DNA of 64,000 bases from positions 62,001-126,000 of the forward strand of contig NZ_DAHVNP010000014.1 in NCBI RefSeq assembly GCF_027319265.1. Direction: 5' to 3'. The notes beneath the pieces are model-generated. The model saw only the letters and a program-made list of their open reading frames with translations. It searched no databases and was not told the origin of the DNA. Position numbers and translations under genes: made by a program. The stretch is from Ferrimicrobium sp. Lineage in GTDB: Bacteria; Actinomycetota; Acidimicrobiia; Acidimicrobiales; Acidimicrobiaceae. The stretch's first letter is position 1. Each line of letters opens with the position of its first letter. Positions 1-63,487 of the stretch are shown here, in pieces.

Positions 1-133
1 GCTGAAATGAGGGTGCCTCGAGCACCTGTAGTGCATAGAGACGAGCGACCAGACCGCCAAGGAGTGCCAATCCTGTCAGCCCGAGCAGACGAGCCCGGAA
101 ACTCAACGAAACTTTCTTTGATCCTTGGGGCAC
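1..133 (-). CDS. mrdA: Penicillin-binding protein 2, N-terminal fragment (cut by window edge)
   Basis: The first 44 codons of a minus-strand gene run off the left edge. It starts at a GTG (131-133) two bases after the mreD stop, with GGAGGT immediately upstream inside the mreD end. The protein opens with a short basic stretch, then a hydrophobic helix (LLGLTGLALLGGLVARLYAL), followed by QVLEAPSFQ. This matches the cytoplasmic tail, single membrane anchor and start of the periplasmic region of class B PBPs. In established rod operons mreB-mreC-mreD is followed by mrdA (PBP2, the elongation transpeptidase), and the spacing here indicates one transcript. Identity rests on context and N-terminal shape only, because no catalytic motif lies inside the window. 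Confidence 0.75.
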   Translation of the reverse strand, partial: MPQGSKKVSLSFRARLLGLTGLALLGGLVARLYALQVLEAPSFQ

Positions 134-135
134 GA

Positions 136-651
136 TTACCTCCGTTCGAGCATCGGGGTTCGTTCCTGCGCTCCAAAGACCAACCGGCAAAGACCAAGCG
201 CTACAACTGCGAGAACTAGATTGATGCCTCCGACGATGATCAACTCGTCGAGTGTTCTCGCCCGCAACGGATTACCAAGGCCAAGCAGGTAGAGGACTAG
301 GGAACTCAACCCTTCCCCAACGACGCTAGTAGCCCCAACTATGAGAATTTTAAGAGCAAGGGGACTCCCGGAATCCAACCGTTCTATCTCACCAGCAAGA
401 TATCCTACCACACAAAGTACGAGCGCTGAGATACCGAATGGAGTCGTGAGGAAGGAGTCGACCAACAGACCAGCGAAGAATCCGGTAAGCGCTCCGATCT
501 CTCTGCCCCGGTACACCCCCACGGCAGCGACCATAAGCATCACAAAATCCGGGTGTACCCCTAAAATGGTGAAGCCACCCGCCCCTGAACGCTGTACCAC
601 CACCGCCGTGAAGATCAACAGAGGCAACCCAAGCGCCCGTACCCACCTCAC
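136..651 (-). CDS. mreD: Rod shape-determining protein MreD
   Basis: A small polytopic membrane protein of about 171 residues, the usual size for MreD, a partner of MreC and MreB in the elongasome that guides lateral cell-wall synthesis. Hydrophobic segments cover most of the length (for example LGLPLLIFTAVVV near the N terminus and LVLAVVALGLCRLVFG near the C terminus). I chose the GTG at 649-651, which overlaps the mreC stop as GTGA and has GGGAGC eight bases upstream. A longer reading from GTG 672 lacks a ribosome site. MreD is poorly conserved in sequence, so the assignment depends strongly on its place between mreC and the PBP2 gene. Confidence 0.85.
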   Translation of the reverse strand: MRWVRALGLPLLIFTAVVVQRSGAGGFTILGVHPDFVMLMVAAVGVYRGREIGALTGFFAGLLVDSFLTTPFGISALVLCVVGYLAGEIERLDSGSPLALKILIVGATSVVGEGLSSLVLYLLGLGNPLRARTLDELIIVGGINLVLAVVALGLCRLVFGAQERTPMLERR

Positions 652-8528: not shown

Positions 8529-8547
8529 GGAACACAACAATGCACCG

Positions 8548-8621: not shown

Positions 8622-8641
8622 CAAGGGCAGAGTTTAGCTGA

Positions 8642-9253: not shown

Positions 9254-9260
9254 CGTCCCA

Positions 9261-9266
9261 ATGATA
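9261..9266 (-). promoter_or_regulatory. Candidate -10 box for leaderless dedA-family gene
   Basis: TATCAT, followed by seven bases and then the ATG at 9253. The spacing would place transcription start at or next to the A of the start codon. No convincing -35. The divergent intergenic region also holds a perfect 10-bp palindrome GAGATATCTC (9281-9290) that could be an operator. Confidence 0.5.
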
Positions 9267-9410
9267 CCTACGTGCGATGGGAGATATCTCGATCTCCAGG
9301 AATTCTTACCACTACTCCAAGCAGGCTCCCAGCCCAATGCAGCTGCCGCAACTAGACGCCTGACCTTTCGGATGATGACAGAGGATCGGCCGACAGATCT
9401 TCGATGCTGG

Positions 9411-9416
9411 TAGCCT
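9411..9416 (+). promoter_or_regulatory. Candidate -10 box for leaderless RecB-like gene
   Basis: TAGCCT is followed by six bases and the ATG at 9423. No Shine-Dalgarno is present, so a leaderless transcript beginning at the start codon is the simplest reading. Confidence 0.5.
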
Positions 9417-9422
9417 GGACGC

Positions 9423-10244
9423 ATGGGGCTACCACTACCTTGCTCGTTGACGCCTACCAAGGTCACTGCCTTCAAGGATTGCGCCTATGCCTTTCGGCTC
9501 TCTATCATCGACAAGATACCCCAACCCCTCTCCATCTGGACCGTCAAAGGCGTCCTCGCTCACCGGGCGCTCGAACGCTTCTACTTCTCGCTACCAGCTG
9601 CCGAGCGCACCCCACAACGGGCACGCTCGATCGTGCAGGACGAGCTGGCCAATAGTCGCAAGGCCGGGTACTCCGCGAACTTCCTAGAAGAGCTCCCCGA
9701 AGGCGCACAAGTCCGCCTCGGCCAAGAGGTGGAACAACTGGTCCTCAACGTCTTCACGCTTGAGGATCCGACCACTACCAACGTTCTCGGCACCGAGATC
9801 ATGTTCGAATCGTCGGTGGGCGACGTCCTCGCTCGCGGCGTAATCGATCGTCTCGACCGTGACGCCAACGGAGACCTCATTGTCGTCGACTATAAGACCG
9901 GTCGTCCACCCTCGCACACTCACGAGCAAGATAAGCTCGCTGGCGTGCTGTTCTATGCGCTTCTCGTCGAACGGGTCCTTGGAGTGAAGCCAAAGAGCGT
10001 CAAGCTGATGTATCTTCGAGATCGCATGGTCATCGAGACTGAGGCGACACCACATCGGCTGCATGCCGTCGAGGGCAAAACGGCCGCGATTTGGTCGGCG
10101 GTTCGTATGGCCTGCGAGACCGGGAACTTCCGCCCGCGACCATCAAGGCTTTGCCATTTTTGCGCCTACCAATGTCAGTGCCCATCCTTTATGGCTCCCC
10201 ACGTGCAACGACAGCCAACTGATCCAAGGGCGCCAGAGGTTTGA
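9423..10244 (+). CDS. RecB/Cas4-like PD-(D/E)XK nuclease with Fe-S cysteines
   Basis: A 273-residue stand-alone nuclease of the PF12705 type. Catalytic residues of the PD-(D/E)XK fold are visible: His48 (LAHRALE), Asp142 (GVIDRLD), Asp156 and Lys158 (VDYKTG). One cysteine near the N terminus (Cys20) and a C-terminal group (Cys244, Cys247, Cys251, Cys253) fit the split 4Fe-4S cluster seen in Cas4 and AddB. There is no helicase domain and no CRISPR array nearby, so a house-keeping repair exonuclease role is more likely than adaptation. Such single-domain RecB-like proteins are common in actinobacteria. The PAP2 gene overlaps its stop. Confidence 0.85.
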   Translation: MGLPLPCSLTPTKVTAFKDCAYAFRLSIIDKIPQPLSIWTVKGVLAHRALERFYFSLPAAERTPQRARSIVQDELANSRKAGYSANFLEELPEGAQVRLGQEVEQLVLNVFTLEDPTTTNVLGTEIMFESSVGDVLARGVIDRLDRDANGDLIVVDYKTGRPPSHTHEQDKLAGVLFYALLVERVLGVKPKSVKLMYLRDRMVIETEATPHRLHAVEGKTAAIWSAVRMACETGNFRPRPSRLCHFCAYQCQCPSFMAPHVQRQPTDPRAPEV

Positions 10245-10774
10245 AACAACTTGATCGCTTTGATGCCGCTGTTGATCGCCTCTTCCAACTGCTGAGGGGA
10301 CGGAGACACCTAGATCGCCTCTTCTATACCCTCTCAGCACTCGCCGACCACTCGCTACTGTGGGAACTCCTCGCGGCATCCCTTGCGATTTCCCCGCGAA
10401 GACGCGGGAACGCTCTACGCGCCGGGGCAGCATTGGGTGTAGAGTCGCTGTTGATCAACGTCGTAGTCAAGTCTTTGTTCTCCCGAGAACGTCCGATCGA
10501 CGACACCTACGAACATCCCCACCATCTCCGATACCCGCTGACATCAAGCTTCCCGAGTGGTCACTCAACCGCGGCCTTTGCTGCGGCTTCCTTGCTTCCG
10601 AGCCATCGGTTGGGCCGTTGGATCCTTTTCCCACTAGCTGCGCTGATCGCGCTCTCACGCATTCACGTGCGCATCCATCATGCCTCCGACGTTATCGGCG
10701 GCGCATTGATTGGTCTCGCTTACGCACACGTAGTCAAAGTTCTTGTGCCGCTCCCACCTCAGCCGAGGGAGTAA
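10241..10774 (+). CDS. PAP2-superfamily membrane phosphatase
   Basis: A 177-residue membrane phosphatase, likely acting on a lipid (poly)phosphate such as undecaprenyl diphosphate or a phosphatidate. All three catalytic motifs are present: KSLFSRERP (KxxxxxxRP, about residues 77-85), SSFPSGHST (about 101-109), and SRIHVRIHHASDVIGG (about 138-153). Hydrophobic segments surround them. The start is a TTG that overlaps the stop of the upstream nuclease gene, pointing to coupled translation. The substrate cannot be told from sequence. Confidence 0.88.
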   Translation: MKQLDRFDAAVDRLFQLLRGRRHLDRLFYTLSALADHSLLWELLAASLAISPRRRGNALRAGAALGVESLLINVVVKSLFSRERPIDDTYEHPHHLRYPLTSSFPSGHSTAAFAAASLLPSHRLGRWILFPLAALIALSRIHVRIHHASDVIGGALIGLAYAHVVKVLVPLPPQPRE

Positions 10775-10818
10775 CACACCCTAGCATGCCCCATCTCGTT
10801 CGCAGAACTTGGGTGTTT

Positions 10819-10848
10819 TTGAGTTATCGTCCTACCACCCGGTAGACT
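10819..10848 (+). promoter_or_regulatory. Candidate sigma-70 type promoter of the DsbA-like gene
   Basis: TTGAGT (10819-10824) and TAGACT (10843-10848) are separated by 18 bases. The start codon follows 33 bases downstream, with AAGGAG between, a standard leadered arrangement. Confidence 0.45.
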
Positions 10849-10881
10849 GATTGTAAAAGCAATCAAAAGGAGACGTAACCG

Positions 10882-11478
10882 ATGCACTTCGCCATCAACT
10901 GGGACTACCGTTGCCCATTCGCTCGTAACATGCATGAACACCTCATTACCGCGATGCAAGATGGTGCGGACTACCAAGTAGACTTCGTGCCGTTCTCCCT
11001 CAGTCAGGTGCACATCGAAGATGGAGAGCCAGACGTTTGGTCAGACCCCGAACGTTACAACGAGCTCCTCGCAGTGATGACTGGCATGACCGTGCAACGC
11101 CACTTCCCAGAGAACTTCCCTGGCGTCCACCTTGCCCTCTTTGCCGCCCGCCACGACCGCGCTCTCGACCTTAGCGATTGGTCAGTACTCGCATCGATTC
11201 TTGAGAGCCATGAGGTGACGCCCGAAGAGGTGCGCAAGCTCATTGATTCAGAACACATCCTCGAGGACTTCAGACGCCAACATCTCGCCTCGGTTGAAGA
11301 ACACCACGTCTTTGGGGTCCCAACATTCATCGTGAACGGCCAAGCTGCATTCGTGCGGGTTATGCATCGACCAAACGGTGATGCAAAGGTAGCTCGCGCG
11401 ACCATCGACCGTGTCCTCGACACCATGACAAACTACCCCGAATTTAACGAGTTCAAGTACACCTCCATCCCCCGCTAG
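10882..11478 (+). CDS. DsbA/FrnE-type thioredoxin-fold oxidoreductase
   Basis: A 198-residue cytoplasmic protein (no signal peptide) of the DsbA-like family that includes FrnE and 2-hydroxychromene-2-carboxylate isomerase. The active-site region is DYRCPFARN at residues 8-16, so only the first Cys of a CxxC pair is kept (CPFA). The cis-Pro loop appears as FGVPTFIVNG (about 144-153). A single Cys suggests thiol-dependent isomerase, transferase or glutaredoxin-like chemistry, possibly with mycothiol, rather than disulphide formation. That is inference. The ATG has AAGGAG nine bases upstream. It stands alone after the PAP2 gene. Confidence 0.8.
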   Translation: MHFAINWDYRCPFARNMHEHLITAMQDGADYQVDFVPFSLSQVHIEDGEPDVWSDPERYNELLAVMTGMTVQRHFPENFPGVHLALFAARHDRALDLSDWSVLASILESHEVTPEEVRKLIDSEHILEDFRRQHLASVEEHHVFGVPTFIVNGQAAFVRVMHRPNGDAKVARATIDRVLDTMTNYPEFNEFKYTSIPR

Positions 11479-12021
11479 GGGCTCCGTCACTCACGGCTAT
11501 ATCCCGCAACTAAGCGACAACCGTTGGGATCGCACTGGCCGGAGCGTCCTGTCGCCGGGGACCAAAGCTTCCCTGCTGTCTTACACTCTCGATCGAGATG
11601 GTCCTGGCTGGACTGCACAGGACTGTTCACCTCCGCATGAACGCATCTCTCGTGATCGGTACTCTATCGGCATCAACGCTGCAGGTCCCCGCTTGGCGAC
11701 CGCCTGCATGCTTCGAGCCATTACCCTCTTGGTGCGCCGAGCCCGGACGATCTGCATCGTTACGGGCAAGATCCACCTGCGCGGCGATCCTCGCTCATCA
11801 CAGTTGACCGCGACACGCTACCCGAGGGGGCACGGTGTGCCAGCTACGGTGAGCCTCACGCCCGACCCAACATGAGGACGATGCACTGATCGATGTGCTC
11901 AGCACCTACCGCGCACTCAGAGTCACGACCGATTATGCCCCTATGCGTACACAAACGTTCCTTGGCACATTCACCGAGCAGTCATCACCGAGCAAGCTCA
12001 ACCGAAACGGTCATGGGCTGT
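11479..12021. other. Non-coding or degraded stretch of about 540 bases
   Basis: No gene I can support. On the plus strand one frame is open from inside the end of the DsbA-like gene to a TGA at 11873-11875 (about 130 codons), with protein-like stretches such as YTLDRDGPGW and RDRYSIGINAAG. It has no plausible start with a ribosome site and matches no family I know. It could be a gene remnant or chance openness in GC-rich DNA. Confidence 0.4.
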
Positions 12022-13059
12022 TCAACCAGTTATGGTCGTACCGAAGTTGCTTCGAAGCGTCTGCGCCCACTCCTCAGGCGAATAGTCAATCATTGTCTCA
12101 AGGCAAAGACGTTCGAAATAGGTGACATCACTCCGATAGTAAGGCTCCATTGGTGCTCTTGCGACGATGCGAAACAGCAAGCTCGCACCAAAATCCCCAC
12201 TATCGGGGGTGGCGCCAATGAGAGAGAAATTGAAGGACTGAATGCCCATTTGCTCGTAGGTGGCGAGTACAAGTGCGAGACCCGATGCCAATTGATAGAT
12301 ATCGGGATCGCTTAGATCAACGAGATCACCAAGCCCAGGGGCCAGCGCCCAAACCTCATAGAATCCGGAGGGCGCGAAGGGAACCAGCCAGACGAATGGA
12401 TCCATATGCGCCACCATGCGCTGGCTCTGTGCATCCTCGAGTGCTATCAGTTCTTCAAAATAGGGTTGACCATAGCTATCAAAATGCTCCTTTGATGCTA
12501 ACAACAACCGTGACTGTGCACCAAGCGGGACAGAATCATGCGAGGATTGGATGTGTGGATGGATGAGTGAACTTCCCGAAGGCGGCAGATAGTTCGCATT
12601 GACTGAGGAGTAAATCAACTCCGGACGTTGAGATCGCACTGCTTTGGCATGTTGTTCGATCGCCAAGAGCACATCGTAGACAACCTCGCGGGTCATGGCC
12701 GTCAGTGGGAGGAAGTGGCGGCTTACATCGTAGACACCGACTGCAGACACGGAGGAATAAGCGATCACATTAGGAACCACCCAGGCGTTCCCAACGATGA
12801 TGCGGCCATTTCTTGCAATCTCCTCGGGGAAGGGCGCGGTTGCATCGCCGATGGTATCTGCACAAAATGGACAGAAGCCGTCTCGTTCGACAACGGAACC
12901 GAGTTCCACAGCACCTGGAGTTAACTTTGCACCCTCGATCAGCCGAGCGCCATGACCGAAGAGCGGGTCCACCCGGTGGATGAGCTTCGCCGTTCTGAAA
13001 CCACCATGCTCGAAGTCTGGAACCTCCGCTTGAAGCTCACGCTCCTGGAACAAAATCAT
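12022..13059 (-). CDS. GalT-like nucleotidylyltransferase (HIT superfamily)
   Basis: A 345-residue protein resembling galactose-1-phosphate uridylyltransferase. A zinc-type pair CPFC (Cys63, Cys66) and the segment GRIIVGNAWVVPNV lie in the first half. The catalytic HIT motif appears as IHPHIQ (His167, His169), close to the HPHGQ of GalT. In GalT the second His forms a UMP adduct. No galK, galE or galM is adjacent, so the true sugar phosphate or nucleotide is unknown. The ATG has GAGGAG eight bases upstream. It is divergent from the histidine kinase, with only 51 bases between start codons. Confidence 0.75.
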   Translation of the reverse strand: MILFQERELQAEVPDFEHGGFRTAKLIHRVDPLFGHGARLIEGAKLTPGAVELGSVVERDGFCPFCADTIGDATAPFPEEIARNGRIIVGNAWVVPNVIAYSSVSAVGVYDVSRHFLPLTAMTREVVYDVLLAIEQHAKAVRSQRPELIYSSVNANYLPPSGSSLIHPHIQSSHDSVPLGAQSRLLLASKEHFDSYGQPYFEELIALEDAQSQRMVAHMDPFVWLVPFAPSGFYEVWALAPGLGDLVDLSDPDIYQLASGLALVLATYEQMGIQSFNFSLIGATPDSGDFGASLLFRIVARAPMEPYYRSDVTYFERLCLETMIDYSPEEWAQTLRSNFGTTITG

Positions 13060-13097
13060 CGATCGCTCTCCTCGAACCAGAACCCATGTACGAGGAC

Positions 13098-13103
13098 TAA
13101 CCT
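13098..13103 (+). promoter_or_regulatory. Candidate -10 box for leaderless histidine kinase gene
   Basis: TAACCT, then seven bases, then GTG at 13111. This supports the GTG as the real start and suggests a leaderless mRNA. The box lies in the short divergent gap with the GalT-like gene. Confidence 0.5.
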
Positions 13104-13110
13104 AGTCGAG

Positions 13111-14229
13111 GTGGACCGACTGGTAGACGAACCGCGTTTGAAAGACATCTTTGCCGCTTTAGTCGACGTCGTAAGCAAGCTCGACATGGATGAGACATTG
13201 GTGCTCCTCGCCGGTCACGCTCGCACGCTCACCCGTGCTCGATATGCAGCAATCGGCGTAGTTGATCCCGCACAACCAGACCGGCTGCTCGACTTTGTGA
13301 CATCGGGCATCAGCTCCGAGGAGCGAAAGCGTATCGGCAATCTCCCCTCCGGTGGTGGACTTCTGGGCGCGGTTATCGACTCTCACGCTCCCGTCATCTC
13401 TGACTCTATCGCCAACGATCCACGAGCCGCTGGTTTCCCCCCAAACCACCCGTTCATGCAACACTTCCTAGGCGTTCCGATTATCACTGGTGAGAAGGTC
13501 TTTGGCAACATCTACGTAACCGACCGCCTCGACGATCAACCGTTTGATCAGGTAGATCTCGCCATCCTTGAGACTCTCGCCACCGGTGCGGCTGCAGTGA
13601 TCGGCAACTTGCTGTTGCGACAGGCGCTCGCCCTCGCGCAAATCGAGGACGACCGGGCACGCATCGCCCGAGACCTCCACGATGACATTGTCCAACGCCT
13701 CTTCGCAGTGGGCCTCCAGCTGCAGGCCGCGTTGCCCTCGCTACAGGGGACTGATGGATTCCTTTTCGTCCGCCAAGCGATCGACGATCTCGATGCCGCA
13801 ATCGGTGAAATCCGGACGACAATCTTTCAACTCGAACCCGCACAGGAGGGGTCATCGCGTTCAGAAGTACTCGACCTTGTCTCGCGGCTCTGCACCATTG
13901 CTGACCTGAAATACCACGTCGTCTTTACCGGCCCAATCGATACCGTTCTCACCAACAGCAAGCAGACCCTTCTCCTCACGGTCCTGCGAGAACTCATCAC
14001 CAACGCCATCAAACACGCTCATGCTCATGAACTCCGCATTGAAATTGGGGTCGCTACAGTCCTCAGCATCGTCGTCATCGACGACGGCGTCGGAATCAGC
14101 GACCATCCTCACCTTGGCCATGGCATCGCGAACCTCCAAGCCAAGGCAGCAACCAGGGGTGGAACCTTTGCGATTGAGGCCAGTCCCTTAGGCGGATCGC
14201 GAGCCACCTTCACGATCCCTCTGCATTGA
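13111..14229 (+). CDS. GAF-domain sensor histidine kinase, DevS/DosS-like
   Basis: A soluble sensor kinase of about 372 residues. A GAF domain (about residues 25-170) contains the DevS-type phrases FVTSGISSEERKRIGNLP and GFPPNHPFM...FLGVPI. The HisKA_3 dimerisation helix has RIARDLHDDIVQRL with phospho-acceptor His at about 190. A HATPase domain follows, with ELITNAIKHA (N box) and DDGVGI (G1 box). DevS-type kinases sense redox, oxygen or NO through haem, but only one GAF is seen and haem binding cannot be confirmed. A longer reading from ATG 12952 would overlap the divergent neighbour by about 100 bases. I prefer GTG 13111. No response regulator gene is adjacent. Confidence 0.85.
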   Translation: MDRLVDEPRLKDIFAALVDVVSKLDMDETLVLLAGHARTLTRARYAAIGVVDPAQPDRLLDFVTSGISSEERKRIGNLPSGGGLLGAVIDSHAPVISDSIANDPRAAGFPPNHPFMQHFLGVPIITGEKVFGNIYVTDRLDDQPFDQVDLAILETLATGAAAVIGNLLLRQALALAQIEDDRARIARDLHDDIVQRLFAVGLQLQAALPSLQGTDGFLFVRQAIDDLDAAIGEIRTTIFQLEPAQEGSSRSEVLDLVSRLCTIADLKYHVVFTGPIDTVLTNSKQTLLLTVLRELITNAIKHAHAHELRIEIGVATVLSIVVIDDGVGISDHPHLGHGIANLQAKAATRGGTFAIEASPLGGSRATFTIPLH

Positions 14230-15213
14230 CAAAGGTTCGATACTCCCGAGCTCATAGAGGCGTGAGAGGCAGCGACCGTACTTCTGCCTGAACCCCCCGG
14301 CCAAGAAACTCGCCGGGAACAGATCTCGAAGAGCACCCTCTCGCAACCGCACAACGACCCCTTGATCATAGAGAACGTCAACAAGGCTACACAAGTGCAA
14401 CGCATCGCTTTGGAGCTCAATGGGAACGACATCGTGTATCTCAACCGCATCGAGCCTCTGAACGACTCCACGATAACGAATTGGATGAACGCTGCGGAGC
14501 TGGTCCAGCAGTTCGCTTAGCCCGACGTGCACCGTACTCTCCGGCAACGATCCAACCCCACTCATTTCGCGATCGAGCGCAAAGCCCCTCCGTCGGAAAT
14601 CCCCGCCCTCAATCGATAGCACCTTGAACGCTCCCGCCAACCCCTGTATCTCACGCAGAAAGTCATCCGCGCCGAAACGCCCCTCTCCAAGTCGATCGGG
14701 CAAGGTGTTCGATGTCACTACGAGGTTGGTTCCGGTCATAAGTAGCTCATCAGCAAGTCTGCTGATGAGGACCGTGTCCCCCGGATCGTCTAGCTCAAAC
14801 TCATCGATCGCCAGCAGGCTCGTCCCTCGAAGGAGTTGAAGCGCACCAGCGAAAGAAAGCGCTCCAACAAGACTCGTCAGCCCGGAGAAGGAGGTATAGA
14901 ACTTCGACCCCGACCAGGCATGAAACGTTGCAGCCAAAAGGTGGGTCTTGCCCACTCCAAACCCACCATCGAGATACCAGCCCACCGGCTGATACACCGT
15001 CGATCGTCGCCACAATCGATGACTGTGGGCCTGCGCCGCGCTCTCGACCGTAAACGCGTGGAGCACCTCCTTGGCTCGCTGTTGCGAAGGAAACCGGAGG
15101 TCTGGGTGGTAGGAATCAAAAGTCGCATCTGTGAACCCGCGAGGAGGAACCATGGCAGCAATTAACTCTTCATGACTCGGGGCGAGGGCCGGATAGCCAA
15201 GCAACATCTCCAT
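14188..15213 (-). CDS. zapE: ZapE/AFG1-like ATPase
   Basis: A 341-residue P-loop ATPase of the AFG1/ZapE family. In proteobacteria ZapE acts at the division ring; its role in actinobacteria is less clear. Walker A is GGFGVGKT (about residues 83-90) and Walker B is LLAIDEFELDD (about 133-143). The family phrase GWYLDGGFG precedes the P-loop, and SNTLPDRLGEGRF lies in the sensor region. I start at ATG 15211-15213. A longer open frame upstream runs through the 13-bp repeats and is not family-like. The 3' end overlaps the convergent kinase gene by 42 bases. Confidence 0.87.
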   Translation of the reverse strand: MEMLLGYPALAPSHEELIAAMVPPRGFTDATFDSYHPDLRFPSQQRAKEVLHAFTVESAAQAHSHRLWRRSTVYQPVGWYLDGGFGVGKTHLLAATFHAWSGSKFYTSFSGLTSLVGALSFAGALQLLRGTSLLAIDEFELDDPGDTVLISRLADELLMTGTNLVVTSNTLPDRLGEGRFGADDFLREIQGLAGAFKVLSIEGGDFRRRGFALDREMSGVGSLPESTVHVGLSELLDQLRSVHPIRYRGVVQRLDAVEIHDVVPIELQSDALHLCSLVDVLYDQGVVVRLREGALRDLFPASFLAGGFRQKYGRCLSRLYELGSIEPLSMQRDREGGSRSA

Positions 15214-52639: not shown

Positions 52640-52661
52640 AGACAACGGAGCAGAGTTGTCT
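52640..52661 (-). terminator. Candidate terminator of the lpd operon
   Basis: A perfect 7-bp stem (AGACAAC / GTTGTCT) with an 8-base loop overlaps the stop codon of the peptidase gene. On the minus strand it is followed by TTTCT. A second imperfect GC stem (CTGGGCC / GGCCCCAG, 52616-52637) lies next to it toward metH. The T-run is short, so efficiency is uncertain. Confidence 0.4.
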
Positions 52662-53784
52662 AAAGCACGGCCAATTCCCGAGGCGACTCGTTCAATGCGC
52701 GAACACCCTTTTCCTCCAAGATGACGATGTCCTCGATCCGAGCACCATAACGACCTGGAAGATAGATGCCTGGTTCAATTGAGAAAGCGGTGCCCGCTTC
52801 CAGGGGCAACACGTTTTCGCTCGACAGGTAGGGATCCTCATGTTCATCGAGTCCAATTCCATGCCCAAGCCGATGAACAAAATACTCTCCATAACCGCCC
52901 TCTGCAATCACATTGCGAGCCACGAGATCGGCTTCCCTGCCGGACATGCCCACCCGGATGCTCTCACGGGCCACTGTTTGCGCATGGTACAGCACTTCGT
53001 AGAGTTCCCCAAAACCTTCGGGAACTTCACCAACTGCAAATGTCCGTGTGGTATCGGAACAATAACCAGGCTCGCCATCAATCGAGTATGTCCCGCCAAA
53101 GTCGAGGACTAACGCATCTCCTGGCATGATAACCCGAGTGGTAGGATCATGGTGTGGCGAAGCAGAATTTGGCCCACTTCCGACAATGGTAAAGTTGACG
53201 CTGGTGTGACCCTCTTCTAGCAGAGCCTCACCGATGTCCTTCGCCACCTCGCTCTCTCGGCGATTCGCTACCTTGATCTCGCCCCGAATCAGCCGCTCCG
53301 TCACCCGGTCCGCTGCATGAGCCGCAAGCTCGAGCAACTCGATCTCGATTGCATCTTTCTGTCGCCGAAGCGGATTTAGCAATGCGGTCGCTGATCGCAG
53401 GCTAGCCCTTGGAGCTCGCTCCATCAGTGGCAGCAGCCATCCAGAGATAAAACGATCATCCACTGCGACAACCTTCGCATCACGAATCATGGATCCGAGG
53501 AGCGCAAAGGGATCCTCGCCATCTACCCATGGCACGAGTTCCAGTCCAGGCAATGCCCGAACTCTCGGCGCTTCCAACTTTGGAATCACCAAACGAGTCG
53601 ACCCGCTGGCATCCATGTAGAGACAGGTAATTCGCTCGAGTGGCATCGCTTGATAGCCGATGAGCCAGGGTAACTCCCTACCCAATGTGATCAGCAATGC
53701 ATCGACTTCGTTCGCCGCCAGTAGCTGTCGGGTCCGCTCCTGGCGTCCTTGATACGCAGCCTCAAACTGAGAAGGTTCAATCAT
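52660..53784 (-). CDS. M24-family Xaa-Pro aminopeptidase
   Basis: A 374-residue metallopeptidase with a creatinase-like N-terminal domain (1-130) and a pita-bread catalytic domain. Metal ligands appear in ALVLDFGGTY (Asp), GYCSDTTRTF (Asp), HRLGHGIGLDEHEDP (His), FSIEPGIYLP (Glu) and ARIEDIVIL (Glu). It removes N-terminal residues before proline. Its ATG overlaps the LipB-LipA stop as ATGA, so it is the last gene of the lpd-E2-lipBA operon, with no obvious functional link. Confidence 0.92.
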   Translation of the reverse strand: MIEPSQFEAAYQGRQERTRQLLAANEVDALLITLGRELPWLIGYQAMPLERITCLYMDASGSTRLVIPKLEAPRVRALPGLELVPWVDGEDPFALLGSMIRDAKVVAVDDRFISGWLLPLMERAPRASLRSATALLNPLRRQKDAIEIELLELAAHAADRVTERLIRGEIKVANRRESEVAKDIGEALLEEGHTSVNFTIVGSGPNSASPHHDPTTRVIMPGDALVLDFGGTYSIDGEPGYCSDTTRTFAVGEVPEGFGELYEVLYHAQTVARESIRVGMSGREADLVARNVIAEGGYGEYFVHRLGHGIGLDEHEDPYLSSENVLPLEAGTAFSIEPGIYLPGRYGARIEDIVILEEKGVRALNESPRELAVL

Positions 53785-55415
53785 GCCATCGCCTCAACGG
53801 CAGCATCGGACCCTTGACGTGCGTGATAGGAGGACCTCGCTAGCGGCGACGCCTCCACATAACGGAAGCCCAGACTCTTCGCATACTCACGCAACTCGAC
53901 AAACTCCTCAGGGTGGTAGTAGCGAGAGACCGGCAAGTGATCTCGCGTCGGCCGAAGATACTGTCCTACCGTTAAAATATCTACACCTACCGACCGTATA
54001 TCACGCATCACTGACTTGAGTTCGGGAATCGACTCGCCCATTCCGACGATGAGACCCGATTTTGTCGTCAAGCCGAACTCCTTCGCCCGTGCCAGTACCG
54101 TCAAAGAACGTACATAGTTCGCAGAGGGACGGACGGCACGGTGCAATCGCAATGCTGTCTCTAGATTGTGATTCAATACATCAGGTCGAGCCTCCAGGAC
54201 CGTCTCAAGCGATGCATGGTCACCCTTAAAGTCAGGGATGAGGACCTCAACCGAACAGGCAGGATTGAGCTCGCGAATCGCATGAATCGTCTCTGCAAAG
54301 GCACCAGAGCCCCCATCTTGAAGATCATCACGGGCCACCGCAGTAACAACCGCAAAGGAGAGCTTCAAGGCTGCGACCGCTTGCGCAACCCGATTGGGCT
54401 CTGTCGCATCGAGTGGCAGCGGCTTTGAGGTATCAACGAGACAGAAGCCACAGGCGCGCGTGCAACGTTCACCGTTGATCATGAACGTCGCAGTACCATC
54501 CTTCCAACACTCATAGATGTTTGGACAACCCGCCTCTTCACACACCGTTACAAGATTCAAATCCCGCACAAGATGCTGCAACGACCGATACTCCGTACCA
54601 AGGTTCACCTCGCTGCGCACCCATTCAGGCTTTCGTGAGACATATGGGACAGCGGACTCAAAGGAGAAGCCCGCCTTCGCCAAACGCTTGTTCAGCCGAG
54701 AGGTGAGCGCGCTCTGTGTTCGTGCTCCTTCTTGTGCAACGGCTACCTGAGAGGCGTCATCCACACCCTGATAGTCAAGCTGATCGAACGCGAAGCAGGA
54801 AGCAAACTCCTTCGCGTAGGCACGAGCTACCTCACGCAAAGATGCATGGACACCTTCGGCCTCCATTGAGGTGACTGCCTTATCAGAGATACCGCATGGA
54901 ACAATATGTTCGAACATAGACAGATCAGTATGTACGTTCAAGGCAAAACCATGCATTGACCGTCCACGGCTTAACTTCACCCCAATGGCAGCGATCTTGC
55001 GAGGAGCGTCAACCGGACCAACCCACACCCCCGGGAACTCCTTAAGTGTAAAGGCCTCGATCCCGTAAGAGGCAAGCAGTGCGATGATCGATGCCTCGAG
55101 TGTGTGGACATACTGCGGGGTCGAATCTGGACCGAACGGGACGTCGATGATGGGGTAACCTACCAGCTGCCCCGGACCGTGATACGTGATGTCACCACCG
55201 CGGTCTGTCCAACAAGAAGTTGCGTTCACCGTAGCAGGATCAACCAAAAGATGGGCAGGATCTGTCCGAACACCCATCGTATACACGTGGGGATGTTCGA
55301 GCAGCAAGAGATGCGAACTCGTCCCCTCGCGGAGTCTCTGTTGAAATACCAACGCGTCCTCGTAACCAACGCGTCCTAACCAACGAGCCCCTAACTCTGG
55401 TCGGCTCTCTACCAT
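53781..55415 (-). CDS. lipBA: Bifunctional octanoyltransferase-lipoyl synthase (LipB-LipA fusion)
   Basis: One 544-residue frame joins both enzymes of protein lipoylation. Residues about 5-215 are LipB: DRGGDITYHGPGQLVGYPI (about 71-89), Lys147 in KIAAIGVKL and Cys174 in PCGISDKAV, the LipB active-site pair. Residues about 255-544 are LipA, a radical-SAM enzyme: auxiliary cluster Cys292, Cys297, Cys303 (CEEAGCPNIYEC), SAM cluster CTRACGFC (Cys318, 322, 325) and the C-terminal RSSYHA that ligates the auxiliary cluster. All key residues are intact. The linker is about 40 residues. ATG 55415 has AGGAG six bases upstream and overlaps the E2 stop by one base. Confidence 0.93.
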   Translation of the reverse strand: MVESRPELGARWLGRVGYEDALVFQQRLREGTSSHLLLLEHPHVYTMGVRTDPAHLLVDPATVNATSCWTDRGGDITYHGPGQLVGYPIIDVPFGPDSTPQYVHTLEASIIALLASYGIEAFTLKEFPGVWVGPVDAPRKIAAIGVKLSRGRSMHGFALNVHTDLSMFEHIVPCGISDKAVTSMEAEGVHASLREVARAYAKEFASCFAFDQLDYQGVDDASQVAVAQEGARTQSALTSRLNKRLAKAGFSFESAVPYVSRKPEWVRSEVNLGTEYRSLQHLVRDLNLVTVCEEAGCPNIYECWKDGTATFMINGERCTRACGFCLVDTSKPLPLDATEPNRVAQAVAALKLSFAVVTAVARDDLQDGGSGAFAETIHAIRELNPACSVEVLIPDFKGDHASLETVLEARPDVLNHNLETALRLHRAVRPSANYVRSLTVLARAKEFGLTTKSGLIVGMGESIPELKSVMRDIRSVGVDILTVGQYLRPTRDHLPVSRYYHPEEFVELREYAKSLGFRYVEASPLARSSYHARQGSDAAVEAMA

Positions 55416-56872
55416 CAAAGCTCCTGCTCCCAATTCCATGTCTCGATCACCTGCTTGAGTTTGGCGAGGAACGCTGCTGCGTAAGCCCCATCGACCGCTC
55501 GATGATCAAAGTTCAGTGTTAACATCCCAACCGAATGGATTCCAATCGACTCATTACCTTCACCATCGACGATCACGACCGGCTTGCGAGCAATACCGTC
55601 AGTCGCCAGAATAACCACCTGAGGTTGGTTGATAATTGCGCCTGTCATGAAGGTACCAAACGGACCCGGATTGGTTATCGTAAAGGTGCCGCCAGCGATA
55701 TCGTCGGCAGCTAGGCGTCGGGTACGGGCACGGGAAGCGAGATCATGGATCTCTCGAGCGATTCCGGTCAACCGCTTCCCATCAGCGCCATGGATTACCG
55801 GGGCAATTAAACCCTCCAAATTAAGATCGACTGCAATAGACAAGTTAATATCTCGATGGACCACTAGCGAATCGCCCAACACGGATGCATTGACATTGGG
55901 GTAGGCCCTTACCGACTCAACTACTGCTCGAGCGATAAATGGAAGGTACGTCAGGCTAAAGCCCTCCTCGGCCTTAAAGTCAGAACCAGCAGCTCGACGA
56001 ACACGCTCGACCCGTTCAAAGTCAACCTCGATCGACATTAGCGTATGCGCTGAAACCGCCTTCGAATGAATCATGTGTTCAGCGGTCCGACGACGAATAT
56101 TGGTAAACGGAACGACATAATCCCGTGAACCCGGCTCAATATCCGGACCAGAGTAGGCTACGGGCGCCTCTTCCCTACGAACAGGAGTCGACGAAGATCG
56201 CTGTGGAGCTGGGGCAGGGGCCGGCTGTGGAGCTGAGGCTGGCTGTGGGGCCGGGGCCTGTGCTCCTGCACGCGACTGTTCTGCCAAGCGATCAAGAATC
56301 GATAACACATCAGATCGAGTAATGCGCCCACCAACGCCTGTCCCTTGAATTGACGCTGGGTCAAGGTTATTTTCTTCGATGAGATGGCGTACAACCGGCG
56401 ACAGAACCAAATCACCGTACTCCTTACTCGGCTGTGGGGCCGGGGCCGGCTGTGGAGCTGGGGCCGGCTGTGGAGCCGGGGCAGGCTGTGGGGCCGGGGC
56501 TGGTTGTGGAGCTGGGGTCGGGGCAGGCTGTGGAGCTGGGGCCGGGGCCGGCTGTGGAGTTGGGGCCGGCTGTGGGGCCGGGGCTGGTTGTGGAGCTGGG
56601 GCCGGGGCCGGCTGTGGAGCTGGGGCTGGGGCCGAACCTGCATCTCCCACCCTCGCAACCACAGTACCTACAGCAACGGTTTCCCCTTCTGGTACTACAA
56701 GCTCACTCACCACTCCTGATGCGGTGGCCGGAACCTCAGAATCCACCTTGTCTGTAGAAACCTCAAAGAGGGGTTGGTCGATCTCAACTGTATCGCCAAC
56801 CTGCACCAACCACTTCGTGATAGTACCCTCGGTAACGGTCTCTCCCAACTGTGGCATAATTACATCAGCCAA
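55415..56872 (-). CDS. Dihydrolipoamide acyltransferase (E2 of 2-oxo acid dehydrogenase)
   Basis: A 485-residue E2: one lipoyl domain (about 1-75; DVIMPQLGETVTEGTITKW, lipoyl Lys42 in STDKVDS), a long Ala-Pro-Gln linker (about 81-148), a peripheral-subunit-binding domain (about 155-195; LSPVVRHLIEENNLDPASI), a second shorter APQ linker and the catalytic domain, with NFDHRAVDGAYAA near the C terminus (active His and Asp). TTG 56870-56872 overlaps lpd and has AAGGAG nine bases upstream. It could serve pyruvate or 2-oxoglutarate/branched-chain complexes. aceE in the window favours pyruvate. Confidence 0.92.
   Translation of the reverse strand: MADVIMPQLGETVTEGTITKWLVQVGDTVEIDQPLFEVSTDKVDSEVPATASGVVSELVVPEGETVAVGTVVARVGDAGSAPAPAPQPAPAPAPQPAPAPQPAPTPQPAPAPAPQPAPTPAPQPAPAPQPAPAPQPAPAPQPAPAPQPSKEYGDLVLSPVVRHLIEENNLDPASIQGTGVGGRITRSDVLSILDRLAEQSRAGAQAPAPQPASAPQPAPAPAPQRSSSTPVRREEAPVAYSGPDIEPGSRDYVVPFTNIRRRTAEHMIHSKAVSAHTLMSIEVDFERVERVRRAAGSDFKAEEGFSLTYLPFIARAVVESVRAYPNVNASVLGDSLVVHRDINLSIAVDLNLEGLIAPVIHGADGKRLTGIAREIHDLASRARTRRLAADDIAGGTFTITNPGPFGTFMTGAIINQPQVVILATDGIARKPVVIVDGEGNESIGIHSVGMLTLNFDHRAVDGAYAAAFLAKLKQVIETWNWEQEL
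56429..56632. repeat. Ala-Pro-Gln linker-coding repeat in E2
   Basis: About 200 bases built from near-identical units, read on the plus strand as GGCTGTGGAGCTGGGGCC and variants. They encode APAPQP-type repeats of the swinging linker between lipoyl and binding domains. Units differ by a few bases, consistent with slippage-driven length change. The long G-rich plus-strand frames here are artefacts of the repeat. Confidence 0.9.
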
Positions 56873-58250
56873 CGTGCAAACTCCTTCCAGTAAGTGCAAA
56901 AACTGTCTCTCCGAACGCCTCCGAAAGGGTCGGATGTGGTTGAATAAAATACGCCAGCTCTTCGGCACTTGCTTCCCAGTTCACCGCTAGGTAGCCCGGT
57001 GAAAGCAGTTCTGTTGCCCAAGGGCCAACAATGTGGACACCTAAAATTTGATGGGTCGCTCGATCTGCAACCACTTTTACGAAGCCGTCCACCTCGCCGA
57101 TGATGCGCGCACGCGAGTTTCCACCAAGTGGATCCTTCTTCACGATCGGGTCGTATCCCCGATCTTTAGCCTGCTCCTCCGTTAGTCCGGCAAAGGCGAT
57201 CTCGGGATGGGTATAAATACACCAGGGAACTCTGGAATAATCAACCGGAGCAGACCTCTCGCCAAGTATTGTCTTGATTACCGCAACCCCTTCGGCAAAA
57301 CCCACGTGTGCAAGCTGAGCGGTGTCAATCAAATCGCCAATGGCATAGACGCCTGGTTCCGACGTTTCATAGTTTTCGTCAACCTCGACAAAGCCTCTCT
57401 CGGACACCGAAACCGCGGATCTACCCTGAAATATGCCCTCAGAATTGGGGCGCCTACCGACCGCAACAACAATTTGGTTGACCACCAACGAGCTGCCATC
57501 TGCTAACGTCAGGGTGGTTTCTTTACCATCGGGACTGTGTCCGGTGACTCCAACACCAGTGCGAATCGCGATTCCACGCTTCTTGAACGAGCGTATCATC
57601 ACGTCGACAAGATCCTGATCGACACCTGGCAACAACCGTGGCAGTGCCTCAACGATCGTAACCTTGCTGCCTAGGTCAGCCATTAACGAGGCGAACTCAC
57701 AACCAATAACCCCACCGCCGACGATGGCTACTGACTTAGGAAGCTCCTCCAACAACAAGACTTCGTCGGAGGTCAGAACGTAACGGCCATCGACCTCAAA
57801 ACCGGGGATGACACGTGGACGCGACCCTGTTGAGATGATGACCTTGTCGCCAACGAGCTTCTCCCCTGTCGATACCGAGATACGCCCATCACCTTCATAG
57901 GCACCGTCACCCGCATACGTCACGATCCCACGGCTCCTCATGAGGCCAGCCAACCCACCCGTCAACTTGTCCACTACCGCTTGCTTGCGTTTTTGCGAGA
58001 TGGCAAAATCCACAACCGGGTCGCTGACAGCAATCCCGAACTCAGCCGATCCACGAATAGAGCGGTAGACCGCGGCCGTCTCCAGATACTCCTTGGCGGG
58101 CACGCAACCACGCTGCAGGCACGTACCACCAACTCGATCGCGCTCTACGATACCGATCTTGAGGCCCGCCGACGCACCGTAAAGCGCTGCCGCATAACCA
58201 GCTGGCCCTGCACCCAGAATCACCACATCAAAAGCTTGCTCTTCGCTCAA
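56865..58250 (-). CDS. lpd: Dihydrolipoyl dehydrogenase (E3)
   Basis: FAD/NAD flavoprotein that reoxidises the dihydrolipoyl arm of E2. The 461-residue protein has VVILGAGPAGYAAAL (about residues 9-23), the redox disulphide in GGTCLQRGCVPAK (about 41-53), the NAD loop VAIVGGGVIGCEFASLM (about 174-190), YAIGDL, and the active-site base in HPTLSEAFGE near the C terminus. TTG start with AAGGAAGGAA upstream. It is the first gene of the operon lpd-E2-lipBA-peptidase and overlaps E2 by eight bases. Confidence 0.96.
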   Translation of the reverse strand: MSEEQAFDVVILGAGPAGYAAALYGASAGLKIGIVERDRVGGTCLQRGCVPAKEYLETAAVYRSIRGSAEFGIAVSDPVVDFAISQKRKQAVVDKLTGGLAGLMRSRGIVTYAGDGAYEGDGRISVSTGEKLVGDKVIISTGSRPRVIPGFEVDGRYVLTSDEVLLLEELPKSVAIVGGGVIGCEFASLMADLGSKVTIVEALPRLLPGVDQDLVDVMIRSFKKRGIAIRTGVGVTGHSPDGKETTLTLADGSSLVVNQIVVAVGRRPNSEGIFQGRSAVSVSERGFVEVDENYETSEPGVYAIGDLIDTAQLAHVGFAEGVAVIKTILGERSAPVDYSRVPWCIYTHPEIAFAGLTEEQAKDRGYDPIVKKDPLGGNSRARIIGEVDGFVKVVADRATHQILGVHIVGPWATELLSPGYLAVNWEASAEELAYFIQPHPTLSEAFGETVFALTGRSLHVG

Positions 58251-60230: not shown

Positions 60231-60659
60231 TTATCGAAAGCGATTCGCTGCTTCCTGGGCAAGTGCGTCCACTCTGTTGTTGTGTGGATCCCTGCTGTGA
60301 CCCTTCACCCACTCAAAGGTGACACTCCGACCAGCATGCAACGCTTCAGCGAGCAGTGGTCGCCAGAGATCACTATTGGCCACCGCATCACCCTTGCTGG
60401 TCTTAAAGCCATTCACTTCCCACTTCTTCCACCATGACTGACGAAAGCAATTGACCACATACGTGGAGTCGGATCGGATCGTGAGATCACCGGCATGGGA
60501 CTCAAGTGCATGCAAGACCGCCGCGAGCTCCATCCGCTGATTGGTGGTCAAAGCCTCCCCACCTGAATCGTAGGCCAGCGAAGTCGGTTCAAACCAAGCC
60601 CAGCCCCCGGGACCTGGATTTCCTTTGCACGCACCGTCCGTGTACACCAACAACGCCAT
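60231..60659 (-). CDS. rnhA: Ribonuclease HI
   Basis: Cuts RNA in RNA-DNA hybrids. The 142-residue protein has all four metal-binding acids: Asp8 (VYTDGACKGNPGPGGW), Glu44 (NQRMELAAVLHAL), Asp64 (IRSDSTYVVN) and Asp131 (NNRVDALAQ), and the basic handle KKWEVNGFKTSKG. ATG 60657-60659 is preceded by GGGGGAG eight bases upstream. A longer frame enters the divergent region. It is divergent from aceE and downstream of nothing related. Confidence 0.95.
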   Translation of the reverse strand: MALLVYTDGACKGNPGPGGWAWFEPTSLAYDSGGEALTTNQRMELAAVLHALESHAGDLTIRSDSTYVVNCFRQSWWKKWEVNGFKTSKGDAVANSDLWRPLLAEALHAGRSVTFEWVKGHSRDPHNNRVDALAQEAANRFR

Positions 60660-60745
60660 GCGAATTACTCCCCCTAAGGTTGCTCTTTGCCGGGTGTCAG
60701 TGTACCAGGTGGAAGTCTTCGCCAAAAGCTGCAAGAATAGTAGAT

Positions 60746-63487
60746 GTGATTATCGACGGCTTTGCACATCAGATTCCAGACATCGACCCAGAAGAGACAG
60801 CAGAGTGGGTAGAGTCATTCGGCTCGCTCGTGGATGGACGCGGCAAGCAGCGCGCCACCTTCCTCCTGATGAAGCTGCTAGAAGCCGCAAGGGAGAGGCA
60901 GGTGGGCTTCCCTGCGACGGTCTCGACCCCTTATATCAACACGATCGCGCCCGAAAACGAACCCTGGTTTCCAGGAGACGAACAGGTTGAACGGCGCATT
61001 CGAGCCTTTATCCGCTGGAACGCCGCTGCTATGGTGACGCGGGCCAATCACCTCGCGGATGGTATCGGTGGCCATCTATCGACTTATGCGAGTTCGGCCT
61101 CACTCTACGAAGTGGGCTTCAACCACTTCTTCCGCGGCAAGGACAACGGGTCTCCAGGTGATTTTGTCTACTTCCAAGGGCACGGCTCACCGGGTATCTA
61201 TTCACGGGCCTTCTTGGAGGGTCGTCTTAGCGAAGACCAACTCGACCATTTTCGCATGGAGGTAGATGGCCTTGGAATCCCCTCCTATCCCCATCCTCGC
61301 CTTATGCCCGAGTTTTGGGAGTTCCCAACTGTTTCGATGGGGTTGGGTCCGATCCAATCGATCTACCATGCCCTTTTTAATCGCTATATGAATGATCGGC
61401 ACCTCGCCAGTACGACCGAGAGTCGGATATGGGGGTTTGTCGGCGATGGTGAATTCGACGAGCCGGAGACCAGCGGAGCCTTGTCGCTAGCGGGACGCGA
61501 GCATCTGGATAATCTGATTTGGGTCGTCAACTGTAACCTGCAACGTCTAGATGGTCCTGTGCGCGGCAATGGCAAGATCATCCAGGAGCTCGAAGCCACC
61601 TTCCGAGGAGCCGGGTGGAACGTCATCAAGGTGGTCTGGGGTTCGAAGTGGGACGAGCTGTTGGCCAGAGACACCGATGGGGTCCTCCTCAACAAGATGA
61701 ACACCACCCCTGACGGAGACTTTCAAAAACTCGCCACGGAGTCCGGTGCCTACATTCGGGAACATTTCTTCGGGCCAGACCCACGGCTGCGTGCACTGGT
61801 GGACCACTTAACCGATGAGGACCTCCAGCAGCTGCCACGAGGAGGGCATGATTACCGTAAACTTTATGCGGCCTATCATGCCGCCGTTAACCACCACGGT
61901 TCACCAACCGCGATCCTCGCTCACACGGTCAAAGGCTGGACGCTAGGGCCTGATATCGAGGCACGTAACTCGACGCACCAGATCAAAAAAATGACGGATG
62001 AACAGCTGCGCCAGTTCCGAGACCGTCTCCATCTTAACGACATCATCACCGACGAGATGTTGGAAGCTCCTGAGCCTCCGTACATCCGATTGCCAGAGGG
62101 GTCGATCGAGGCTGCCTACCTCAGCTCACGCCGCAAGCAACTCGGAGGCTCATTGCCGCGCCGTATGAATAGAAGCGCCGAATTGCCAGCACCAAGCGAT
62201 GATGTCTTTAAGGAGTTCTACCTTGGGTCTGCCAAACAACAGGTCTCTACCACAATGGTCTTCTCCAAACTCCTTCGTAACCTCATGAAAGATCCCCTGG
62301 TCGGAACGCGCGTGGTTCCAATCGTGCCTGATGAGGCAAGGACCTTCGGCCTTGAGGCCCTATTCCGCGAGGCAAAAATCTACTCTACGATCGGGCAACG
62401 CTACACACCCGTTGATGCGGGACTGCTCCTCTCCTACACCGAAGCCCAGGACGGTCAGATCCTTGAGATGGGTATCACCGAAGATGGGTCAACCGCGATG
62501 TTCACCGCCGCTGGCACCTCCTATGCAACGCTTGGGGTGCCCATGATTCCTGTCTATCTCTTCTATTCGATGTTTGGTTTCCAGCGTTCAGGAGATCTCC
62601 TGTGGGCGGCATCCGATGCACGCGCGAAGGGCTTTCTCATCGGAGCGACTGCCGGCAGGACTACGTTGATTGGCGAGGGACTACAGCACACCGATGGACA
62701 CTCCCAGATACTGGCAGCGGTCTATCCAAATGTGCAAGCGTACGATCCGGCCTTTGCGTATGAGATCGCAGCGATTGTCAAGCACGGGATCGCTGACATG
62801 TTCGGCCCACATGGCAGAGATGTCATCTACTACCTCACCACCTACAACGAAAACTACGTAATGCCCCCCGTGGACGCGGAGAAAAACCTCGAAGAGCTTG
62901 TGGACTCCATCGTTCGTGGTGGATATCTCTTCGCAGCCGGCCACAACCCAGAGGAGCTCTCGCCTATCTCATCTGCGACGCCAAGGGACCGTGCGCGCCA
63001 CGCCACCCTGTTATTCTCCGGCACAGCACAATCCTCGGTGCGTGCGGCTGCCGATGCTCTCCGGGAGCACTGGAATGTCGTCTGCGATGTCTACTCGATC
63101 ACCTCATACAAGCGCCTTCGAGAGGATGCCGAAGCCGCCGAACGCTTCGAACGGCTCCACCCCGGCGAAAAGACGGAGTCTCCCTGGGTCTCCCAGCTAC
63201 TGGCAGGCGCAGAAGGACCAATCGTAGCTACTACCGACTTCGTAAAACTGGTGCCTGATCAGATTCGGCCGTTTGTGCACCAACCTTTCGTCTCTCTTGG
63301 AACCGATGGCTTTGGCCGTTCAGACACACGGGAAGCCCTTCGCCGATTCTTCGAGACCGATGAGGGATCGATCGTCGTTGCTACACTTTCAGCGCTATCC
63401 AAGCAAGGCGAAGCCAAGCCCGAAGAGGTCGCCGATGCAATGACACACTACAGTGTTGTCTACGAGCACCACGATCCGACCGTCTAA
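60746..63487 (+). CDS. aceE: Pyruvate dehydrogenase E1 component, homodimeric type
   Basis: Thiamine-diphosphate enzyme that decarboxylates pyruvate and acylates E2. The 913-residue product has the usual AceE features: YFQGHGSPGIYSRAF, the ThDP motif GFVGDGEFDEPETSGAL followed by NCNLQRLDGPV, LAHTVKGWTLG, and C-terminal TLIGEGLQHTDGHSQ and YYLTTYNENY. The open frame extends 80 codons upstream across rnhA, but homology begins about VIIDGFAHQIPDIDPEETAEW, so GTG 60746 is chosen. There is no clear ribosome site. E2, E3 and lipoylation genes lie 4-5 kb away on the other strand. Confidence 0.95.
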   Translation: MIIDGFAHQIPDIDPEETAEWVESFGSLVDGRGKQRATFLLMKLLEAARERQVGFPATVSTPYINTIAPENEPWFPGDEQVERRIRAFIRWNAAAMVTRANHLADGIGGHLSTYASSASLYEVGFNHFFRGKDNGSPGDFVYFQGHGSPGIYSRAFLEGRLSEDQLDHFRMEVDGLGIPSYPHPRLMPEFWEFPTVSMGLGPIQSIYHALFNRYMNDRHLASTTESRIWGFVGDGEFDEPETSGALSLAGREHLDNLIWVVNCNLQRLDGPVRGNGKIIQELEATFRGAGWNVIKVVWGSKWDELLARDTDGVLLNKMNTTPDGDFQKLATESGAYIREHFFGPDPRLRALVDHLTDEDLQQLPRGGHDYRKLYAAYHAAVNHHGSPTAILAHTVKGWTLGPDIEARNSTHQIKKMTDEQLRQFRDRLHLNDIITDEMLEAPEPPYIRLPEGSIEAAYLSSRRKQLGGSLPRRMNRSAELPAPSDDVFKEFYLGSAKQQVSTTMVFSKLLRNLMKDPLVGTRVVPIVPDEARTFGLEALFREAKIYSTIGQRYTPVDAGLLLSYTEAQDGQILEMGITEDGSTAMFTAAGTSYATLGVPMIPVYLFYSMFGFQRSGDLLWAASDARAKGFLIGATAGRTTLIGEGLQHTDGHSQILAAVYPNVQAYDPAFAYEIAAIVKHGIADMFGPHGRDVIYYLTTYNENYVMPPVDAEKNLEELVDSIVRGGYLFAAGHNPEELSPISSATPRDRARHATLLFSGTAQSSVRAAADALREHWNVVCDVYSITSYKRLREDAEAAERFERLHPGEKTESPWVSQLLAGAEGPIVATTDFVKLVPDQIRPFVHQPFVSLGTDGFGRSDTREALRRFFETDEGSIVVATLSALSKQGEAKPEEVADAMTHYSVVYEHHDPTV

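Follow-up and report, generated by a model that had tools for sequence, protein, structure and literature searches.

To our knowledge, the two steps of lipoylation are carried out by separate enzymes in the LipB/LipA systems known. The genes of the lipBA operon of Shewanella oneidensis presumably yield two proteins as well, with a coupling that we take to be transcriptional. A fused design is modeled in NCBIfam as NF053790 (LplA_LipA_fuse, bifunctional lipoate--protein ligase/lipoyl synthase), in which an attaching enzyme likewise stands ahead of LipA. Here we describe a gene from Ferrimicrobium sp. (class Acidimicrobiia, phylum Actinomycetota), referred to as lipBA, that joins an octanoyltransferase (LipB) to a lipoyl synthase (LipA). 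It lies in a 64,000-nucleotide stretch of DNA, hereafter the window (positions 62,001 to 126,000 of contig NZ_DAHVNP010000014.1, assembly GCF_027319265.1, a draft of 82 contigs that is 95.9% complete). The fusion was confirmed: a complete LipB is followed by a complete LipA in one stop-free frame.

A preliminary description of the window had proposed a single uninterrupted frame with two complete enzymes, and this assignment holds, with both families scoring over curated cut-offs; its strand (minus) can now be added (Table 1). The frame starts with an ATG at 55415 and ends with a TGA at 53783-53781, while an alternative in-frame ATG upstream, at 55439, would give a protein of 552 amino acids (aa). 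Frame 1 of the plus strand across 53781..55415 contains many stops. In the fusion protein, Pfam places LplA-B_cat at residues 23-205 (129.5 bits; cut-off 27), LIAS_N at 260-297 (35.8 bits; cut-off 27) and Radical_SAM at 316-472 (46.5 bits; cut-off 29.5), and all three domains are found in 35 of 35 members of the fused-protein set A1. The N-terminal half belongs to LipB by the family models TIGR00214 (136.9 bits; cut-off 83.55) and PRK14345 (175.7 bits; cut-off 155); the narrower LipB models PRK14341, PRK14342 and PRK14343 match below their cut-offs. The C-terminal half belongs to LipA by TIGR00510 (343.5 bits; cut-off 310.25) and not to LipS2, whose model gives 24.1 bits against a cut-off of 270 (LipS1 was not searched for).

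Structural comparisons were made for both halves. By sequence, solved LipA and LipB structures match the respective halves. By fold, the LipB half is paired with 2qhs (Z score 30.9 over model residues 6-214) and 1w66 (30.8 over 1-211), and the LipA half with 5exk (39.5 over 238-543); the same structure listing also gives ligases with ranges reaching into the LipA half, such as 2art (6..446). The N-terminal half is like LipB of M. tuberculosis (1w66) and 2qhs/2qht, which we take to be Thermus LipB, in its fold, its Lys/Cys spacing, and its HGPGQ and PCG motifs, although known LipB is a separate protein and the fusion carries LipA at the C-terminus of LipB. The C-terminal half is like LipA (M. 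tuberculosis 5exi/5exj/5exk; human LIAS 8ugo) in its radical-SAM fold, Cys triplets and RSSY motif. Known LipA, too, is a separate protein, whereas in the fusion the LIAS_N match is confined to positions 59-96 of the 96-position profile.

Conservation of active-site residues was assessed in a 97-row alignment. It combines the window's protein with 96 rows of fused proteins, among which the window's own gene recurs once. Every row (97/97) has K140, C174, all six LipA cysteines and R527, and 96/97 have S528 and S529. K140, in the context RKIAAIG, aligns with the Lys of RKVAAIG in 1w66, and C174 aligns with the Cys of PCG in the same structure; the Lys-Cys distance is 34 residues in both the LipB half and the M. 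tuberculosis protein. The matched 1w66 residues are presumably the catalytic K142 and C176 of M. tuberculosis LipB, with K135/C169 as the counterpart in E. coli. The preliminary description had named Cys174 correctly but was mistaken in giving Lys147 as the LipB lysine, since the conserved lysine is K140 and K147 is absent from the positions common to at least 95 of the 97 rows. Both LipA cysteine triplets and the C-terminal RSSYH that it listed are present, as CX4CX5C (C292/C297/C303), CX3CX2C (C318/C322/C325) and residues 527-531. We assume that the first triplet holds the auxiliary cluster and the second the radical-SAM cluster.

The fusion is a trait of Acidimicrobiia as a class rather than of this genome alone. 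In the contig collection, the nearest relatives are from a Ferrimicrobium sp. (98%) and an unclassified Actinomycetes metagenome-assembled genome (92%; best segment). In a class survey of 148 genomes, 141 have a match, and the fusion is found in 137 of these 141. A single match reaches into both halves in 120 genomes; for six of them (G013, G119, G123, G183, G192 and G166) a stop was counted inside the match, yet a stop-free two-half open reading frame (ORF) was found in each. For a further 17 genomes with two matches, the fusion was shown by ORF. At genus level, a match exists for 80 of 82, and the fusion is shown in 78 of those 80. It is also seen in the single-contig assemblies G012 (2,158,157 bases), G041, G061, G084 and G037. 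The contig collection overlaps in part with these genomes; there, the fusion is carried by 34 of 79 loci, whose titles all refer to Actinomycetota or one of its subgroups, and 45 were not seen as fused, one of them (L045) starting at a contig end. Among apparent exceptions within Acidimicrobiia, three (L131, L178 and L195) are LipA fragments that remain open up to the contig end, and L132 (G029) has stop codons close to a contig end.

Three genomes of the class have unusual gene sets. Besides its fusion (L154, on C3), G108 carries a second, unfused E2-lipB-lipA set (L138, on C83), for which contamination and gene transfer are both possible. The congener draft G006, which is 83% complete, has two fusion copies, on C82 and C252 (L004; L032 and L044), that are 98% and 89% identical to that of the window and reflect either a mixed bin or a duplication. 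In the Acidimicrobiia isolate PFL8 (G317), a stand-alone LipB (L152, the same protein as L089) sits closest to the fused LipBs in the LipB tree, and beside it a LipA piece (L151) is cut at a contig start, with upstream residues that by eye look like a LipB tail; the stand-alone LipB is either a spare LipB or part of a split gene.

In the other bacterial groups compared, LipB and LipA are separate proteins. The figures given here are among the matches listed, best scores first, so that a fusion with a very long linker might have been missed. Within that scope, no stop-free match across both halves was seen in other Actinomycetota (92/109 genomes matched, at least two of them, G226 and G249, only weakly), in the phylum of a Chloroflexi locus (130/151 matched), in the phylum of a Rikenellaceae locus (146/148 matched) or in the phylum of the genome carrying L068 (5/5 matched); further phyla are represented by single loci only. 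Several candidates were rejected. Two-half matches in G305 (other Actinomycetota), G415 (the phylum of the Chloroflexi locus), and G493, G552 and G548 (the phylum of the Rikenellaceae locus) proved on ORF checking to have a stop between the genes, and stop counts, made without an ORF check, gave 2, 4 and 3 stops within the matches of G563, G560 and G536. Long-frame LipA matches outside the class had no LipB in the same frame in those fetched; L161 and L176, with ~640 and ~500 extra residues upstream of LipA, look like chance open frames. Loci from Chloroflexi, Lentisphaerales, Deltaproteobacteria and Bacteroidales that seemed fused have separate frames. Listed open-frame lengths read through stops (for G231, 604 listed versus ORFs of 280 and 323) and were not used as evidence. 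In a search of a plasmid collection, the 8 matches listed were all in two pieces. The gene order varies in these groups: lipA precedes lipB in L163, L164, L165, L169 and L175 (the phylum of the Chloroflexi locus) and in L078 and L080-L088 (mostly Bacteroidales), and elsewhere in these phyla (L168, L157-L160 and L172-L174) lipB comes first.

Separate genes in the order E2, lipB, lipA, where E2 is a component of a 2-oxoacid dehydrogenase, are present in the other Actinomycetota loci L143, L144, L145 and L148; L146 shows the same order with a gap of ~3 kb ahead of lipA. A single stop codon separates the lipB and lipA frames of L144. Of the 67 distinct fused ORFs with at least 900 nucleotides upstream, 62 have the end of E2 immediately ahead of them; 30 further ORFs are too short to tell. 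Trees were built for each half. In the LipA tree (96 fused and 58 separate rows), the fused rows form one side of a branch with a Shimodaira-Hasegawa-like approximate likelihood ratio test (SH-aLRT) value of 92. The LipB tree (96 fused and 65 separate rows) requires two changes, or one without L089, the stand-alone LipB from an Acidimicrobiia genome. L131, L132, L151, L152, L045, L178, L195, L153, duplicates, and fused ORFs with short matched domains were left out of the trees. Most likely, these sequences reflect a single fusion followed by vertical descent, which is the simplest reading and no proof. The stop between lipB and lipA would have been lost once, in an E2-lipB-lipA operon at or near the base of the class Acidimicrobiia, and the fusion would then have been inherited vertically.

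Taken as a whole, lipBA is proposed to encode a bifunctional lipoyl-assembly enzyme, a whole LipB joined to a whole LipA, that arose once near the base of the class and was passed on by vertical descent; we give this reading a probability of roughly 0.88. The LipB half would transfer octanoate from acyl carrier protein onto C174, aided by K140, and would then hand the octanoyl group on to the lysine in the lipoyl domain of apo-E2, and presumably also to GcvH. The LipA half, with two [4Fe-4S] clusters, would then insert sulfur at C6 and C8 of the octanoyl chain while it is attached to the protein. We infer activity of both halves, synthesis as a single polypeptide, the fusion route described above, and a benefit that would lie in fixed stoichiometry and in the closeness of the two steps. 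The 1:1 ratio of LipB to LipA put forward in the preliminary description follows, provided that the fusion is translated whole.

Several observations weigh against this reading. Four of the 141 matching class genomes do not show the fusion (contig starts truncate G157 and G194, and no assignment was reached for G135 or G146), and 7 of the 148 class genomes have no match, 4 of them being 93-96% complete. Of the 148, 34 come from one genus, so they are not 148 independent cases. The proposed ancestral order is not universal, being found in 5 of the 8 other-Actinomycetota loci fetched (one of them gapped); in L135 and L147 no E2 was detected in the stretch alongside lipB-lipA, and L142 carries lipA first. 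The trees were made by a quick method without bootstrap, and the support of 92 for the LipA-tree branch is below 95. LipB function might be partly redundant, given two other LplA/LipB-fold proteins in the genome. Finally, an in-frame ATG lies within or close to the linker in 77 of 96 members, and in 33 of 96 an ATG or GTG there is accompanied by a loosely defined Shine-Dalgarno (SD)-like 4-mer, a count for which no chance expectation was computed.

Partial internal initiation is therefore possible in some species, and the frame could be open and yet deliver two proteins, by internal initiation or by proteolysis in a disordered linker, so that lipBA would be merely a tightly coupled operon. In keeping with such a scenario, the linker is of low confidence in two AlphaFold models (in that of the window's protein, the predicted local distance difference test (pLDDT) value is <50 at residues 221-234), ranges from 28 to 175 residues among fused proteins, and evolves faster than the domains: among congeners its rate of nonsynonymous substitution (dN) is about 3-5 times that of the domains, with the frame kept. 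Compared with congener L005, the linker has a dN of 0.203, against about 0.04 for the domains, and a synonymous rate (dS) of 1.19, with no indel, and is therefore under loose but still protein-coding constraint. Separate translation would let stops and frameshifts build up in the linker, whereas both halves stay in one frame in the 137 of 141 matching class genomes. In the linker of the window's gene there is neither an ATG nor an SD-preceded ATG, GTG or TTG, the four congeners listed next also lack an SD-preceded start there, and no promoter- or terminator-like pattern was found within the fusion gene on its strand. Production of two proteins is thus considered improbable, and translation of lipBA in one piece is preferred.

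A further alternative is that one half is a catalytically dead scaffold, for example an inactive LipB, with other LplA-like proteins carrying out octanoylation. Candidates for this role exist, namely the two further LplA/LipB-fold proteins, encoded on contigs C33 and C50. Their best matches are ligase models, all below cut-off, and one of them stands beside GcvH-like and sulfur-carrier-like genes, while the supposed catalytic residues of both halves of the fusion are identical in all 97 rows; a dead half is accordingly judged very improbable. That an assembly or sequencing artefact removed a stop between lipB and lipA, as could be suspected in an 82-contig draft, is rejected as having a negligible chance, because the fusion recurs across class assemblies, single-contig ones included (137/141), and in the 34 of 79 contig-collection loci.

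If the protein is made whole, its halves may be held in a defined arrangement. AlphaFold models, which drew on 35 fused sequences, have a mean pLDDT of 86.5 and a predicted template modeling (pTM) score of 0.88 for the window's protein, and 84.0 and 0.86 for the L043 protein, whose 48-residue linker is of low confidence. By a rough hand estimate, two freely oriented domains of this size would give a pTM of ~0.57. The scores of 0.86-0.88 hint at, or are at least compatible with, halves held in a fixed relative orientation. It is conceivable, though unlikely, that the halves dock in a fixed arrangement and that the same molecule octanoylates and then sulfurates a lipoyl domain with little release between the steps. 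Docked halves would then make up a built-in lipoate assembly station kept across a whole bacterial class.

The gene neighborhood includes components of a 2-oxoacid dehydrogenase.

Table 1 Features of the lipBA locus (window coordinates).
Feature	Position	Strand	Remarks
lipBA fusion gene	53781..55415	minus	544 aa + stop; stop-free frame, both enzyme families above cut-off
LipB (octanoyltransferase) part	54801..55394	minus	residues 8 to about 205-211; PF21948, TIGR00214, PRK14345
K140 codon; C174 codon	54996-54998; 54894-54896	minus	in LipB part
Linker	54645..54800	minus	residues 206-257 (~50), poorly conserved; mostly outside Pfam/NCBIfam LipA/LipB matches
LipA (lipoyl synthase) part	53784..54644	minus	residues 258-544 (lipoyl synthase about 258-539); TIGR00510
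E2 of 2-oxoacid dehydrogenase	55415..56968	minus	TIGR02927, 405.9 bits, just below cut-off 423.45; presumed lipoylated substrate
Dihydrolipoyl dehydrogenase (E3)	56865..58250	minus, upstream of E2	TIGR01350, 476.8 bits, cut-off 408.8
Pyruvate dehydrogenase E1 (aceE, homodimeric type)	60506..63487	plus (opposite strand)	TIGR00759, 1265.2 bits, cut-off 859.9
Xaa-Pro peptidase-like (PepQ-like) gene	52660..53784	minus	NF040821, 163.2 bits, below cut-off 630

The fusion gene follows directly behind E2 with overlapping stop and start, as first described: the TGA of E2 (55417-55415) overlaps the ATG at 55415 as TGATG, and an AGGAG lies 5 nucleotides before that ATG. The best model of this E2, TIGR02927, is of the actinobacterial SucB type. 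E1, E2 and E3 of this neighborhood are probably components of a pyruvate dehydrogenase, which would thus be encoded together with the maker of its cofactor. At the other end, the PepQ-like gene begins within the stop of the fusion (ATGA, 53784-53781); it is an operon neighbor, and no role in lipoate metabolism is inferred for it. On the plus strand at 56379-56990, ORFs of Gly/Ala- or Gly/Trp-rich repeats run antisense to the Pro-Ala-rich linker of E2 and are most likely not genes.

Genome-wide, one LIAS_N match, three LplA-B_cat matches and three GCV_H matches were found. In this 95.9% complete genome, no second LipA-type synthase and no LipS2 over cut-off were found, LipS1 being outside the search. 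The LplA-like protein on C33 lies in a stretch (L202, C33:1-15000; 6518-14514) beside two GcvH-like proteins and a DsrE2-like sulfur carrier, together with a 721-aa Hdr/TfrB-like Fe-S protein and EtfA/EtfB-like genes, a set that resembles a lipoate-dependent sulfur-oxidation cluster. The third LplA/LipB-fold protein, on C50 (L203, 3064-3744, minus strand), has 226 aa and is only weakly like known ligases.

The fusion is a clean marker of the class Acidimicrobiia. It offers a natural test of whether LipB and LipA cooperate on one lipoyl domain, which is hard to arrange with separate proteins, and it could serve as a ready-made construct for making lipoate in engineered cells. When LipB and LipA are counted family by family, it can be missed that both are one protein here; automatic UniProt annotation can presumably label such proteins as multifunctional.

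The preliminary description had left open whether such fusions were described before, and the answer is divided: a ligase-LipA fusion is already modeled by NCBI, and no description of a LipB-LipA fusion was recognized in searches of the open-licence PubMed Central (PMC) literature. In the GTDB-wide survey of lipoate assembly (PMC10332631), passages that use fusion or fused in a specific sense deal with ligase domains, and the string "Acidimicrobi" is absent from the main text. Likewise, the consulted parts of PMC3917532, PMC3904984 and PMC4398509 do not mention a LipB-LipA fusion. As far as the last of these describes it, the lipBA operon, for example in Shewanella oneidensis, contains the same genes as the fusion, adjacent and co-expressed. 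In NF053790 the N-terminal half is a lipoate ligase, whereas in the Ferrimicrobium protein it is LipB. The fusion protein scores 361.2 bits against the NF053790 cut-off of 800, and its best stretch covers profile positions 329-605, the LipA part only; it is therefore not a member of that family. The LipB-LipA join, with halves that each look ordinary, is real, apparently old and a modest surprise.

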